64,000 bases of DNA. Source: a virus. Of the stretch, positions 49,337 to 63,717 are shown piece after piece. A model generated the notes under the pieces. It was not told where the DNA came from and did no database searches. It saw only the letters and a program-made list of their open reading frames with translations. A program made the translations under genes and the position numbers. The stretch is taken from positions 1 through 64,000 of IMG/VR virus record IMGVR_UViG_3300037189_005847; one strand, written 5' to 3'. Each line of letters starts with the position of its first letter. Position 1 is the first letter of the stretch.

Positions 49337-49693
49337 TTAGAACTTTACAGACAGTTCAACAAAAGCCTGTTCTTTTTCAAAGTTGTTGTCTAGAGTCATG
49401 TAAGTAGTAGCAGTTAGATACTTGAGCTGCGATGGTGCGTACACTACGCCAAACTCAGAACCAGTAAACTCACCGGCTTTAACATCTGCATACAGCGTGC
49501 CGTAAGCCGATAGATCTGCGGTAGCTTGGAAGGCTAGTCCAGTTTCAAAATCAGTGCCGAATAATTCATTTGATACGTCATAAGTAGTGGTAAGCTCGGT
49601 GTTCCAAGCTAGTTTATCAGTTAGATCTGCAGCCATTGCTGAGCCTGCGCTGATGGCTAGTACTGCGGTAGCTGCGATTAGTAGTTTATTCAT
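49337..49693 (-). CDS. Exported small outer-membrane-like beta protein
   Basis: 118 aa: signal peptide MNKLLIAATAVLAISAGSAMA, then alternating beta strands (WNTELTTTYDV, ATADLSAYGTLYADV, FVELSVKF) and a C-terminal Phe, the BAM recognition residue. Looks host-derived. A phage surface barrel could mask receptors or block superinfection; inferred. Confidence 0.65.
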   Translation of the reverse strand: MNKLLIAATAVLAISAGSAMAADLTDKLAWNTELTTTYDVSNELFGTDFETGLAFQATADLSAYGTLYADVKAGEFTGSEFGVVYAPSQLKYLTATTYMTLDNNFEKEQAFVELSVKF

Positions 49694-49729: not shown

Positions 49730-49900
49730 TTACACTTTCGTAATCACAATAGAATGATTCTCTACTGAGACGGATAGAGTATCGCCGGGAACCCAACCAG
49801 TGACGTCTAATACTTCTTGTGGAATTACCATAAGGCAGAGGTCTTCATCGTCCTCAATGTCTTGAAATATATCATCCACACTATATGTTCTTGTAATCAT
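49730..49900 (-). CDS. AbrB/SpoVT-like DNA-binding protein, 56 aa
   Basis: Start MITRTYSVDDIFQDIED; C-terminal IPQEVLDVTGWVPGDTLSVSV is the swapped-hairpin AbrB signature. Could regulate transcription or act as an antitoxin-type regulator. Confidence 0.65.
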   Translation of the reverse strand: MITRTYSVDDIFQDIEDDEDLCLMVIPQEVLDVTGWVPGDTLSVSVENHSIVITKV

Positions 49901-49909
49901 CATATCCTT

Positions 49910-49939
49910 AATATAGCATACACTATCCGATCTAAGCAA
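49910..49939 (-). promoter_or_regulatory. Promoter for the AbrB-like gene
   Basis: Minus strand TTGCTT, 18 bases, TATATT, directly before AAGGA and the start codon. Confidence 0.75.
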
Positions 49940-49972
49940 TATTAATATTACTTTGTCTGATAAGTTTATAAG

Positions 49973-50226
49973 GTGGGCCCGTTCTGTTTCTAGGTGGAAC
50001 CCATACCCACTTAAATTAAGCTACTAGAGCTAATTTAACAGGTGCTGAATTTTCATTTGCACTTATTGATTTTCTTGCGGTTACAGTCGCTTGCTCACTG
50101 GCTCCTCACGCATTGCTACAACGTATGTCGATCCCTTTTACCCCCATAATTAATATGGTTGGTGGAGGTAACGGCATCCGAGAGCCGTGTCCATTCCATC
50201 TTCACAACTTGCTACAAACGGAGCAC
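49973..50226 (-). ncRNA. ssrA: Circularly permuted (two-piece) tmRNA
   Basis: Order on the minus strand: acceptor piece (about 50226-50160) with T-arm ACGGC/GCCGT at 50188-50171 and TACCTCC-A-CCA ending at 50160; a 14-base intervening segment (50159-50146); then GGGGGTA (50145-50139), the 5' acceptor strand. The acceptor stem pairs completely with G3.U70 and discriminator A, the alanyl-tRNA synthetase identity. GGGATCGAC follows as D-loop. The tag frame at 50060-50016 encodes ANENSAPVKLALVA and ends with TAA in a hairpin. The RNA closes with a GTGGG/CCCAC hairpin. The T-loop (TCTCGGAT) is unusual. Two-piece tmRNA is typical of alphaproteobacteria. Confidence 0.9.
50016..50060 (-). other. tmRNA tag-peptide reading frame
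   Basis: Resume codon GCA then 13 codons and TAA: ANENSAPVKLALVA. AATAAGT stands before the resume codon as in other tmRNAs. The hydrophobic end (ALVA) would direct tagged proteins to ClpXP-type proteases. The stop lies in a TTAAATTAGCT/AGCTTAATTTAA hairpin. Confidence 0.85.
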
Positions 50227-50853
50227 TTAAATTATATATTCTGGATGCAATCCATAGTGTATTTCTCTATGGCAGTTGGCACATACTAAAATACACTTTT
50301 CTAACTCTAGTACTATAATATCTTCTTTATGCGTACTTAGATCAGATATTTTGTATTCTTTAATCTGCGGGTCCACATGGTGAAACTCTAGAGCCTGTTT
50401 ACATTTACTATACCCACATATATTACATGAGTAAGACCCGACTACTTTTAATATTATATCTTCTTTTCTAGAATCGTTTTGCACTATTTGGCAGTTTTTG
50501 CATTTTGATTTATACTTTTTCTTACCACTAGGTTGATACCCATTAGAGTAAAACTCCGTTATTGGTAACTCTCTGTTGCAAGCAGAGCATGTCTTTATTG
50601 TGTCTTCTTCTATTCCTAAAATTTCTTCCCTGTACTGTTTTAGAAAATAAAAATTAAAAGATGTATTCTTGTCTTTGTGTGCCTTCTCTCCGAAGATTTT
50701 CGTGAGTCCAACACTAACTTTTTGTTTAGTTAATTTATTTTCTAGGTAAGTACTAGGTGCCACAGATGTTTGTAGCATAGCCTCTATCAGAAGCTCATAA
50801 TTATCTACTTTTTTATCTATTACATTAGATAGTATGTATTCTTCATAAGTCAT
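50227..50853 (-). CDS. HNH endonuclease next to the tmRNA
   Basis: 208 aa. Two zinc knuckles, CSACNRELP and CKNC, then CNICGYSKCKQALEFHHVDP and CANCHREIHYG, the HNH core. Its stop lies directly before the tmRNA acceptor piece and its start after a 300-base structured region. It is probably a mobile homing endonuclease inserted beside or into the tmRNA locus. Confidence 0.8.
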   Translation of the reverse strand: MTYEEYILSNVIDKKVDNYELLIEAMLQTSVAPSTYLENKLTKQKVSVGLTKIFGEKAHKDKNTSFNFYFLKQYREEILGIEEDTIKTCSACNRELPITEFYSNGYQPSGKKKYKSKCKNCQIVQNDSRKEDIILKVVGSYSCNICGYSKCKQALEFHHVDPQIKEYKISDLSTHKEDIIVLELEKCILVCANCHREIHYGLHPEYII

Positions 50854-51155
50854 TTCTCCTCCAAGAAAAGGCTAGATAATGTGGAGGCATTATCAGGAGC
50901 CGTCGCTCTTTTCGCCTACAGTATAGATTATATTTGTGTGGTTAGGCATCTAACAGACGATCTTAATAGGTATTTTAGGGTTTCTGGGTTGTGCCTACTA
51001 ATATAAACCCTTTTTCGTTTCCACACTAGGCGGAACCCTTATACTACATGGGAGACCCCAAGTTGGTCGAGCTATGCCCAAATCTCCAGAGTATCAGTCT
51101 GGCGTATTTTAGTAGGTCGTCAAACCTACAAGCCCTAGTTCATTTCATGAACAAC
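50854..51155 (-). ncRNA. Structured non-coding segment upstream of the HNH gene
   Basis: No frame. Successive minus-strand hairpins: GTTCAT/ATGAAC, GTAGGT/ACCTAC, CCAGA-CTGATAC-TCTGG (51102-51086, tRNA anticodon-arm-like), TTCC/GGAA, AGGGTTT/AAACCCT. GGGTTCCGCCTAG resembles GGGTTCCACCTAG of the tmRNA 3' hairpin. Could be a decayed intron, an RNA duplicate or a leader. I cannot assign a class. Confidence 0.45.
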
Positions 51156-60851: not shown

Positions 60852-60986
60852 TTACTCTTGATTTGGGTCGTCGATTGGTGTGTAGCACTTCTTTGCCTCA
60901 GCTGCTTCTGCTGCTCGTCGCTTGTTGCGCTCGTCGTTTAGGCGCCATGCTTCTGCCATTAGACGTGCTTCATCACTACGATTCAT
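60852..60986 (-). CDS. Small charged helical protein, 44 aa
   Basis: MNRSDEARLMAEAWRLNDER, Ala/Arg/Glu-rich. ATGA overlap with the nicotinamide phosphoribosyltransferase stop. Last gene of the NAD operon; no family recognised. Confidence 0.55.
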   Translation of the reverse strand: MNRSDEARLMAEAWRLNDERNKRRAAEAAEAKKCYTPIDDPNQE

Positions 60987-62416
60987 CACACACCTTCCTT
61001 TGCACGTTCACGAATGTTTTCAAACGTATCTTCAACGAGTATAACGCCGTTCATGAACACGGGCTGCAACAGGTTTTCTGCGCTTGGACGCTCCCAGAAA
61101 TAGTCTGCTGGAACGGTGCGGATGTATGGAGCAATACCAAATCCAGCTTCTTTGACTAGAGCAATACGGCCTTCTTTAGAACGCTTACCGTGATCAGTTA
61201 CTGGGTCTTTTGAGAATCCAACCCAATCACTCTCATTAACACGAATAGCTGATGCCTTCATTGCATACTTGAGAGTATCACGGTTCCAAGCTTGTAGCAA
61301 CCCGCCGCCCATACCGAATGTGATGTTTTCTGCCGAGAACCCTGCCGTTTTCAGATTTTCTAGAATCTTAGGTAGCGAGTGTTCGTTGATACCATCGCCT
61401 TGAATAACTCTAACGCTTGGGTGCAGAACCTTAAACCCTTTCGAGTTTGTAGTAGTTCCAAACTTGCTAGCAAGGATTTTGACAATCTCTACAGGTACAG
61501 TTTCGGGATCACCACTATCAGGACGTACCACCAAGGTGCCGCCTGAATTGATTATCTTCTCACGAAGAACTTCACCCCATAGATGGCCAGCTGCGTGATA
61601 GATGTCGAAGCTATCAGATACGCAAGCATACAGCTTGCCTTCACCTGCGAACTGGTCGATCATGTTGTCATAAGCATCAGTTTCATGTGCACGACCCCAA
61701 GAAGTGATAGTGCTATGTTCACTAGCTGGGATGCTAAACCCAACAACCTCATCAGTGTTGTAGTATTCCATAACACCTACAAGAGCTTCGGCAGTATCAG
61801 TACCCATAAAGTTTACTAGGTGAGCCATGCCGCCGAGCATCGCAGTTTCACTAGACGATGCGCCACGAGCACCAAAGTCATGGAGCTTGAAATTGATCTG
61901 AGCTTCTACTGAAACGTCAGATGTTTCTTCAAGAGCACGCTTGATGATTTTCTTCATCTTGCGCGACTTCGTCGCCACAGTAGAAGGATACCACACACCA
62001 CGAAGCATAGCTGTTTCCAAGTACGAAGTCAACCACCACAGGCGCGGGTCTGTATTAACTACCTGAACCTGTACGTTATGGGTTGGCATAACCGTACCTT
62101 CTGGTACTGCTTCTACCAGCACTGGCAACATACCGTTATATTCGTTTACGATAATTTCCCAACCTTCGCGGTTGAAAGGTAGACCGTGTGCTAGAACAAT
62201 ACGTTCTGCACGATCTACGTCCGCCATTGTGATAGGCGTGGTCATATAGTCTTTCATAAACGCTTGCAGACCAAAGAACACACTCTCATCTTCGCCACCG
62301 CGGCTTTCAATGTACGAAGAAATGTGAGTAGTACCTGCTGGATACTGAACCCACTGAGAAAATTTGTAGCTATCGGTACGAAGGATAGCTGAGATAAGAT
62401 GTAGTACTGTTTTCAT
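60986..62416 (-). CDS. nadV: Nicotinamide phosphoribosyltransferase
   Basis: 476 aa, full length for NAMPT/NadV. TDSYKFSQWVQYP at the N-terminus, KLHDFGARGASSSE, VRPDSGDPE and QGDGINEHSLPKIL are family signatures; the last holds the PRPP/nicotinamide site. Makes NMN from nicotinamide and PRPP. With the adenylyltransferase at 62644-63717 it forms the two-step pathway that rebuilds NAD+. Confidence 0.93.
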   Translation of the reverse strand: MKTVLHLISAILRTDSYKFSQWVQYPAGTTHISSYIESRGGEDESVFFGLQAFMKDYMTTPITMADVDRAERIVLAHGLPFNREGWEIIVNEYNGMLPVLVEAVPEGTVMPTHNVQVQVVNTDPRLWWLTSYLETAMLRGVWYPSTVATKSRKMKKIIKRALEETSDVSVEAQINFKLHDFGARGASSSETAMLGGMAHLVNFMGTDTAEALVGVMEYYNTDEVVGFSIPASEHSTITSWGRAHETDAYDNMIDQFAGEGKLYACVSDSFDIYHAAGHLWGEVLREKIINSGGTLVVRPDSGDPETVPVEIVKILASKFGTTTNSKGFKVLHPSVRVIQGDGINEHSLPKILENLKTAGFSAENITFGMGGGLLQAWNRDTLKYAMKASAIRVNESDWVGFSKDPVTDHGKRSKEGRIALVKEAGFGIAPYIRTVPADYFWERPSAENLLQPVFMNGVILVEDTFENIRERAKEGV

Positions 62417-62643: not shown

Positions 62644-63717
62644 TTATCCAATGTTGATAAAGTTGTCGATGATGTGGAAGTGGTCTTCAAACATCTTCTC
62701 TTGCTTCACATCCTTGAAAGGAACCCAGAATGCTTTTTCAGCATCATCAGAACCTTTAACCTTTGGAAGCTCGCCAACACCAAGGTCAATCAAGAATGCT
62801 TGAGTGATAGTACGGCCACGAGTAGAACGGTTAGGAGCGTCAAAAGTCTTGGAAGCTTTGATAGAACCTTTCAAAACCGGAGCAGGAACTTTGATCTTGG
62901 TTTCTTCTTTCAGTTCACGAATAGCCCCGTCAAGCATAGTTTCGTCTTGGTTCAAGAAACCACCTGGCAGTGCCCATTGACCTTTGCCAGGCATGTCGCC
63001 ACGCTTTACAAGAAGAATATGACCGCTTTGAATAACAACAGCGTCAACAGTCATGAAAGTAGGAGGGAACGGAGCGGCCTTCCACGCTTCTTTGTATTTT
63101 CGTACCATTTGGTATTCTTTGCAAATAGTGTCCCATGCACCGCCGATCTTGGCATTCTGATTGATAACGTCACACATCTTTCCGTGAGCTTCTTTAGGCA
63201 TCATTGTAGAAATAAAGTGCGAGCTTGTACCAGCGTCGTTACCTTCAAACATCAGCTTACGAATGTCAGTAGCATTAATACCACCAACATCATCAACTTC
63301 AATATGGTTCTTCCAGCGAGGGAAGATGTTCAGGTAGTAACTAGTGCTGTCTTTTGAGTGACCAATCAGACCAACATCTTGTGCATCAGGAACAGTCACA
63401 TCAACAATACGTTGAATTGCATTGACCCATTTATTGTCGTCATACGGGAAGTCAGAGACTGGAACAACTTTTACGCGAGACGTCTTCACTCGACCTTGAG
63501 CACCCTCATAAGCAAAGTGCTGTGGTTTGTTGAAACAGACTTCAATCATAGCCTTGCGTTCTTGGAACGTAAATGGATTTCGTATATTTCGAGCAGCAAA
63601 GCTAGAGCCGACTACTACAACTACCTCTTTAGCTTGCTCAAGTGCAGCATCAATAACTGCTTTGTGTCCATTGTGAAACGGCTGGAACCGACCGATAAAT
63701 ACTAGTGCATCACGCAT
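62644..63717 (-). CDS. nadM: Bifunctional NMN adenylyltransferase / Nudix hydrolase
   Basis: 357 aa. Residues 1-180: NMNAT domain with GRFQPFHNGHKAV (HxGH) and INATDIRKLM. Residues 220-357: Nudix domain with GGFLNQDETMLDG leading into AIRELKEETKI, the complete Nudix box. The first half makes NAD+ from NMN and ATP. The Nudix half of such fusions can hydrolyse ADP-ribose. Together with nadV it equals the NAMPT-NMNAT route used by phages against NAD+-depleting defences. Confidence 0.93.
   Translation of the reverse strand: MRDALVFIGRFQPFHNGHKAVIDAALEQAKEVVVVVGSSFAARNIRNPFTFQERKAMIEVCFNKPQHFAYEGAQGRVKTSRVKVVPVSDFPYDDNKWVNAIQRIVDVTVPDAQDVGLIGHSKDSTSYYLNIFPRWKNHIEVDDVGGINATDIRKLMFEGNDAGTSSHFISTMMPKEAHGKMCDVINQNAKIGGAWDTICKEYQMVRKYKEAWKAAPFPPTFMTVDAVVIQSGHILLVKRGDMPGKGQWALPGGFLNQDETMLDGAIRELKEETKIKVPAPVLKGSIKASKTFDAPNRSTRGRTITQAFLIDLGVGELPKVKGSDDAEKAFWVPFKDVKQEKMFEDHFHIIDNFINIG

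Follow-up and report, generated by a model that had tools for sequence, protein, structure and literature searches.

Whether a tmRNA gene and the endonuclease gene that abuts it on a phage genome are chance neighbours or arrived together is the question raised by this locus, which lies on the minus strand of a 64,000-nucleotide stretch (the window) of a 78,366-base linear metagenomic virus contig. The first-pass annotation had read the locus as a phage-borne, permuted tmRNA of the alphaproteobacterial type, and that reading stands; its suggestion that the kind was unreported does not, and it missed the neighbouring HNH gene as well as the apparent chimerism of the tRNA-like domain. We conclude that this is a two-piece phage tmRNA gene, and that the HNH gene beside it probably arrived along with a foreign tRNA-like domain.

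Identity and relatives of the permuted tmRNA

Read directly and through Rfam alignments, the minus strand from 50226 to 49972 is a circularly permuted tmRNA of the alphaproteobacterial type. When the whole 64-kb window was compared with all 4227 Rfam families using cmscan (Infernal), exactly two matches exceeded threshold, both at this position and both to curated covariance models of permuted tmRNA, whose gathering scores were surpassed: RF04321, the permuted tmRNA model (81.7 bits, E 4.4e-14, cut-off 47), and RF01849, the alphaproteobacterial tmRNA model (59.9 bits, E 5.6e-14, cut-off 50). The Infernal comparison suggested in the first-pass annotation thus recovered the gene. Because these were the sole matches over threshold, and because the closest viral relatives carry a tmRNA at the syntenic place, the resemblance is not due to chance. 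The parts of the gene, all on the minus strand, are as follows.

50160..50226: acceptor RNA, the 3' half of the tRNA-like domain, 5' end approximate (RF04321 and RF01849 alignments, parser, direct reading)
50224-50220: P2 strand GCTCC, within the acceptor RNA
50188-50171: T-arm ACGGC/TCTCGGAT/GCCGT with an 8-nt loop, within the acceptor RNA
50170-50164: 3' acceptor strand TACCTCC (direct reading, parser)
50163-50160: encoded ACCA (direct reading, parser)
50146..50159: intervening sequence accatattaattat, 14 nt, expected to be removed (direct reading, parser)
49972..50145: coding RNA with D-region, P2, tag and a 3' domain ending GTGGG...CCCACC (RF01849 alignment reaching 49972)
50145-50139: 5' acceptor strand GGGGGTA (direct reading, parser)
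50016..50060: proteolysis-tag frame ANENSAPVKLALVA, GCA...GCT at 50060-50019, with the stop TAA at 50018-50016 (parser)

The permuted order, with the CCA-bearing 3' half upstream of the 5' half and 14 bases between them, had been described in the first-pass annotation and was recovered both by direct reading and by the parser, as were the seven acceptor pairs, all of which form, G3-U70 among them. The T-stem pairs at five of five positions. The tag frame, likewise read as first described, starts with Ala and closes with a hydrophobic degron end (ALVA) directly before the stop. The hairpin said to contain that stop found no folding-energy support of its own (40 nt, -3.3 kcal/mol, z 0.21 against shuffles). 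We also considered the 14-nt spacer as a remarkable feature and rejected it: the parser places the CCA-to-G1 spacer of other phage copies at 2-238 nt, with 12, 14 and 15 nt among them. The 2-nt case (L247) could be a parser artefact.

The notion that a permuted tmRNA was unrecorded in phages did not survive comparison with the literature. A two-piece tmRNA of phage Melnitz was published in 2022, and that report gives two-piece structures for 53 of 133 unique phage tmRNAs and a permuted tmRNA for 17 of 47 Melnitz-like contigs (PMC9004378). The RF04321 model itself derives from a study that counted 79 phage tmRNAs of all forms (PMC11915505), and it scored over its cut-off in 15 of 33 related viral records here. 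Taken alone, therefore, the window tmRNA is one more member of a known set. It shares with those of Melnitz and marine pelagimyophages a circularly permuted, alpha-type organization for which two-piece processing is expected; unlike the window, Melnitz has no HNH gene mentioned at its tmRNA in the part of the report available, and its tmRNA is said there to be under the control of a glutamine riboswitch (PMC9004378), whereas the Rfam scan of the window gave no riboswitch. With the alphaproteobacterial tmRNAs of RF01849 and RF04321 it has in common the acceptor-IVS-coding order, G3-U70, the 3' motif CCUAGAAACAGAA and a tag of the form ANxN...; it departs from them in its T-loop (GGCRGUA, 7 nt, in the bacterial RNAs) and in its RF01849 score, which is only 59.9 bits as against 232-235 bits for Kordiimonas and Eilatimonas. 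A permuted tmRNA was also seen, unannotated, in an isolate jumbo phage, Sinorhizobium phage Phosso (PV764938.1, L308 913-1515; RF04321, 113 bits), where the match spans 603 nt, so that the intervening sequence probably runs to several hundred bases.

Probable replacement of the tRNA-like domain beside an HNH gene

Less ordinary than the tmRNA itself is its setting. The HNH ORF stops 3 nt short of the tmRNA core with its acceptor half, and the features of the junction, all on the minus strand, are these.

50227..50853: HNH endonuclease ORF, 208 aa (PHROG 2255 HNH endonuclease, E 2.2e-35)
50862-50856: SD sequence ggaggag of the HNH ORF, upstream of 50853
50107..50930: replacement block of HNH gene, both tRNA-like halves and spacer, in place of L052 7856-8047 (blastn synteny breaks, identity drop)
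50941..50954: GTTAGATGCCTAAC, able to form a hairpin and conserved on the upstream side of the insertion; in L052 and L053 the acceptor half follows it directly

The two closest viral relatives, L052 (IMG/VR 3300028025_003217, its tmRNA also listed as L239) and L053 (3300016476_000584, also L238), carry a permuted tmRNA with the tag ANDNVAPVKLALAA at the syntenic position and have no HNH gene there, and thus represent empty-site alleles. By blastn, window positions 51731-50930 align to L052 at 79% and positions 50106-46001 at 89%; between these blocks the window has 823 nt where L052 has 192 nt. The conserved GTTAGATGCCTAAC is possibly the original leader, or the 5' end of the acceptor half.

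The replacement runs through the tmRNA gene. Compared with L239 and L238, respectively, the window is 0.94 and 0.91 identical in the tag and 3' domain, 0.64 and 0.64 in the acceptor half, and 0.57 and 0.60 in the 5' half of the coding RNA, whereas L238 and L239 agree with each other at 0.95, 0.83 and 0.85 over the same three parts. As the tRNA-like halves have diverged while the tag domain is conserved, the change took in the tRNA-like domain as a unit, and the acceptor and T-stem pairings of this domain are complete despite the change in sequence. When acceptor and coding halves were cofolded, every acceptor half did best with its own coding half (for the window, -45.1 kcal/mol versus -40.9, -39.3 and -35.7 kcal/mol with others). 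With P2 alone, duplex energies gave the native partner no consistent advantage: the acceptors of L052 and L053 did better with the window coding strand. The search for a donor of the swapped domain found none, the best match to either half being 0.68-0.74 identical, and an exact pattern across the window acceptor and spacer had no match in viral contigs. Since no donor was found, the domain may have diverged fast after the insertion instead of being swapped.

The HNH gene recurs in such settings. A full-length relative, 62% identical, ends about 10 nt before a permuted tmRNA in L176, and the same HNH-tmRNA junction is found on another contig (L151/L195). In a survey of 123 tmRNA-bearing viral stretches (1.05 Mb), the family of the window HNH had five matches, all abutting the tmRNA gene: upstream of it in the window, L176 and L195, and downstream of its 3' end in L216 and L257. 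From these positions, both ends of the tmRNA gene appear to be insertion sites for the HNH. More widely, the stop codon of family members lies within 40 nt of the edge of a tRNA or tmRNA gene in 12 of 26 non-identical loci, compared with 1.69 expected, and four of the five isolate phages examined (SA001, KoPa-4, SLAM_phiST45 and PcCB7V) carry a family HNH at an RNA-gene edge. The same-family ORFs in L216 (2055-2465) and L257 (1284-1691) start directly after the 3' end of the permuted tmRNA. Other HNH-family ORFs often end at or inside tRNA genes (L154, L156-L158, L162, L163, L167, L169-L172, L177, L180); in L162, L167, L170 and L172 the end falls 9 nt past the start of a tRNA-Asn gene.

This association bears on the simplest alternative, that the locus is an ordinary phage two-piece tmRNA with an incidental HNH neighbour and a tRNA-like domain that merely diverges fast. 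Permuted phage tmRNAs are common, as are HNH genes in phages, but the family HNHs found in tmRNA loci all abut the tmRNA, the family is associated with RNA genes, and identity is only about 0.6 in both halves but above 0.9 in the tag domain next to them, and we regard this alternative as unlikely.

For the window HNH, the best reading is instead a homing endonuclease of the free-standing kind, from a lineage attached to RNA genes and resembling T4 SegB. We considered the HNH as an intron ORF and rejected this, because the Rfam scan found no group I intron in the window. Hairpins sequestering the RBS before the HNH were likewise rejected, as the leader folds no better than shuffles (z -0.8 and -0.5). 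Pfam HNH models scored the protein only below cut-off. The PHROG 2255 HNHs of tRNA clusters in Salmonella phage SA001 and Pseudomonas phage KoPa-4 are about 50% identical to it in the C-terminal part; their ORF ends abut or overlap the 5' end of a tRNA gene, where the window has the acceptor half of a permuted tmRNA instead. Group-I-intron tmRNAs with LAGLIDADG genes likewise link a homing endonuclease to a tmRNA gene (PMC11915505), although there the endonuclease gene lies inside a self-splicing intron in the T-loop, whereas the window HNH has no intron and abuts the permuted acceptor half. SegB and other free-standing homing endonucleases of T4 reside among tRNA genes and co-convert their flanks (PMC2988022), and the window HNH resembles them, with the differences that SegB is a GIY-YIG enzyme near tRNAs, and the window protein an HNH near a tmRNA for which homing is only presumed. 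The literature on tmRNA and homing endonucleases, covered through titles and abstracts with subscription papers mostly outside, yielded intron and LAGLIDADG cases and no description of an HNH at a permuted tmRNA gene, which is weak evidence of novelty.

On the reading that HNH gene and tRNA-like domain came in together, a resident phage tmRNA gene would have been broken in its tRNA-like part and repaired from an HNH-bearing genome. The repair would have copied the HNH gene and the adjacent domain, leaving the resident tag and 3' domain in place, with a chimeric but still paired tmRNA as the outcome; such co-conversion would explain why a foreign tRNA-like domain lies beside a resident tag domain. 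Here the permutation of the gene matters: it sets both tRNA-like halves side by side, in a contiguous stretch of about 120 nt, so that a single short tract is enough to exchange the entire domain, pairing partners included. From the junction it seems that homing endonucleases target tmRNA genes as they do phage tRNA clusters, which would be a concrete way for mosaic phage tmRNAs to arise. More tentatively, an HNH lineage specialised on tRNA and tmRNA genes might drive a modular, permutation-enabled exchange of tRNA-like domains between phages, whose tmRNAs would then be chimeras of one phage's domain and another's tag; we consider this general scheme possible, though rather doubtful.

Predicted function and expression

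Processing by the host, alanylation and use of SmpB are established for the tmRNA family, and by analogy the window tmRNA most likely functions in the same way. Host enzymes of tRNA processing would cleave its precursor at the CCA end (50160) and at G1 (50145), and pairing in the acceptor stem and P2 would keep the resulting acceptor RNA and coding RNA together. Trans-translation would then rely on the AlaRS of the host, acting through G3-U70, and on SmpB, and would add the phage-encoded tag ending ALVA. SmpB is assumed to come from the host because no smpB gene was found on the contig.

The standard 7-nt T-loop, which is usual, if not strictly required, is absent from this RNA. Among 100 parsed viral copies the loop has 7 nt in 97 and 6 nt in two, and only the window has 8. 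ARAGORN gives no call for the tmRNA at 50226-49972, probably because of this loop, and the case shows that ARAGORN-based surveys overlook some phage copies. The 8-nt loop may be natural, may impair function or may be a sequence error. We therefore weighed whether the RNA, damaged by the HNH insertion and the altered loop, might be decaying and unable to tag, or might act as a decoy for SmpB. The unique loop, the missing ARAGORN call and an RF04321 score below the 90-123 bits of over-cut-off relatives would fit, and a phage RNA consisting of a tRNA-like domain only has been reported to inhibit tmRNA (PMC4131195, PMC11915505). Against this, the acceptor stem has all seven pairs with G3-U70, and CCA, 5-bp T-stem, tag frame and 3' domain are likewise intact, which is not a pattern of decay, and such a role seems distinctly improbable.

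One candidate promoter element lies at the junction itself.

50231..50236, minus strand: TATAAT box, putative -10 of a tmRNA promoter, inside the 3' end of the HNH ORF (last codons), at -76 from the CCA end

A sigma70 scan gave no minus-strand promoter over 49850-51150 and no -35/-10 pair at TATAAT; because no -35 was found, the box is only suggestive of a tmRNA promoter. In T4, a neighbour's promoter can be embedded in endonuclease genes, an arrangement argued to favour their retention (PMC2988022). Elsewhere, the T4-type late promoter box TATAAATA stands 66-80 nt upstream of the CCA end in 25 of 77 distinct permuted phage tmRNA loci (L187-L305 and others), against a background of about 0.02 per 160 nt; at this fixed position it would start transcription near the 5' end of the acceptor RNA. 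The window TATAAT, at -76, falls within the same interval.

Phage context and neighbouring genes

The tmRNA sits on a tailed-phage genome. That it is a bacterial fragment or a host tmRNA excised with a prophage is very improbable: alpha-type tmRNAs do resemble bacterial ones, but the same contig encodes a portal protein (PF04860, E 5e-53) and a large terminase subunit with about 40% identity to its counterparts in T5-like and related phages, the related L052 and L053 keep a tmRNA at the same place, and the degenerate DNA pattern of the tag had no match in the bacterial genome collection.

The alphaproteobacterial affinity proposed in the first-pass annotation is upheld by the RF01849 match and by an exact 21-base 3' motif, which in bacterial genomes occurs in only two contigs, of Kordiimonas and Eilatimonas, both alphaproteobacterial with alpha tmRNAs; the same motif has at least 119 matches in viral contigs.

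Directly downstream of the tmRNA, at 49337-49693 on the minus strand, is an ORF for a small, secreted-looking protein of 118 aa with a signal-peptide-like start and no Pfam or PHROG match, which also follows the tmRNA in L052 and L053 and is more diverged in L176. Further along the window, two minus-strand ORFs (60986-62416 and 62644-63717) read, from their translations, like a nicotinamide phosphoribosyltransferase and an NMN adenylyltransferase-Nudix fusion, which suggests a phage NAD salvage module.
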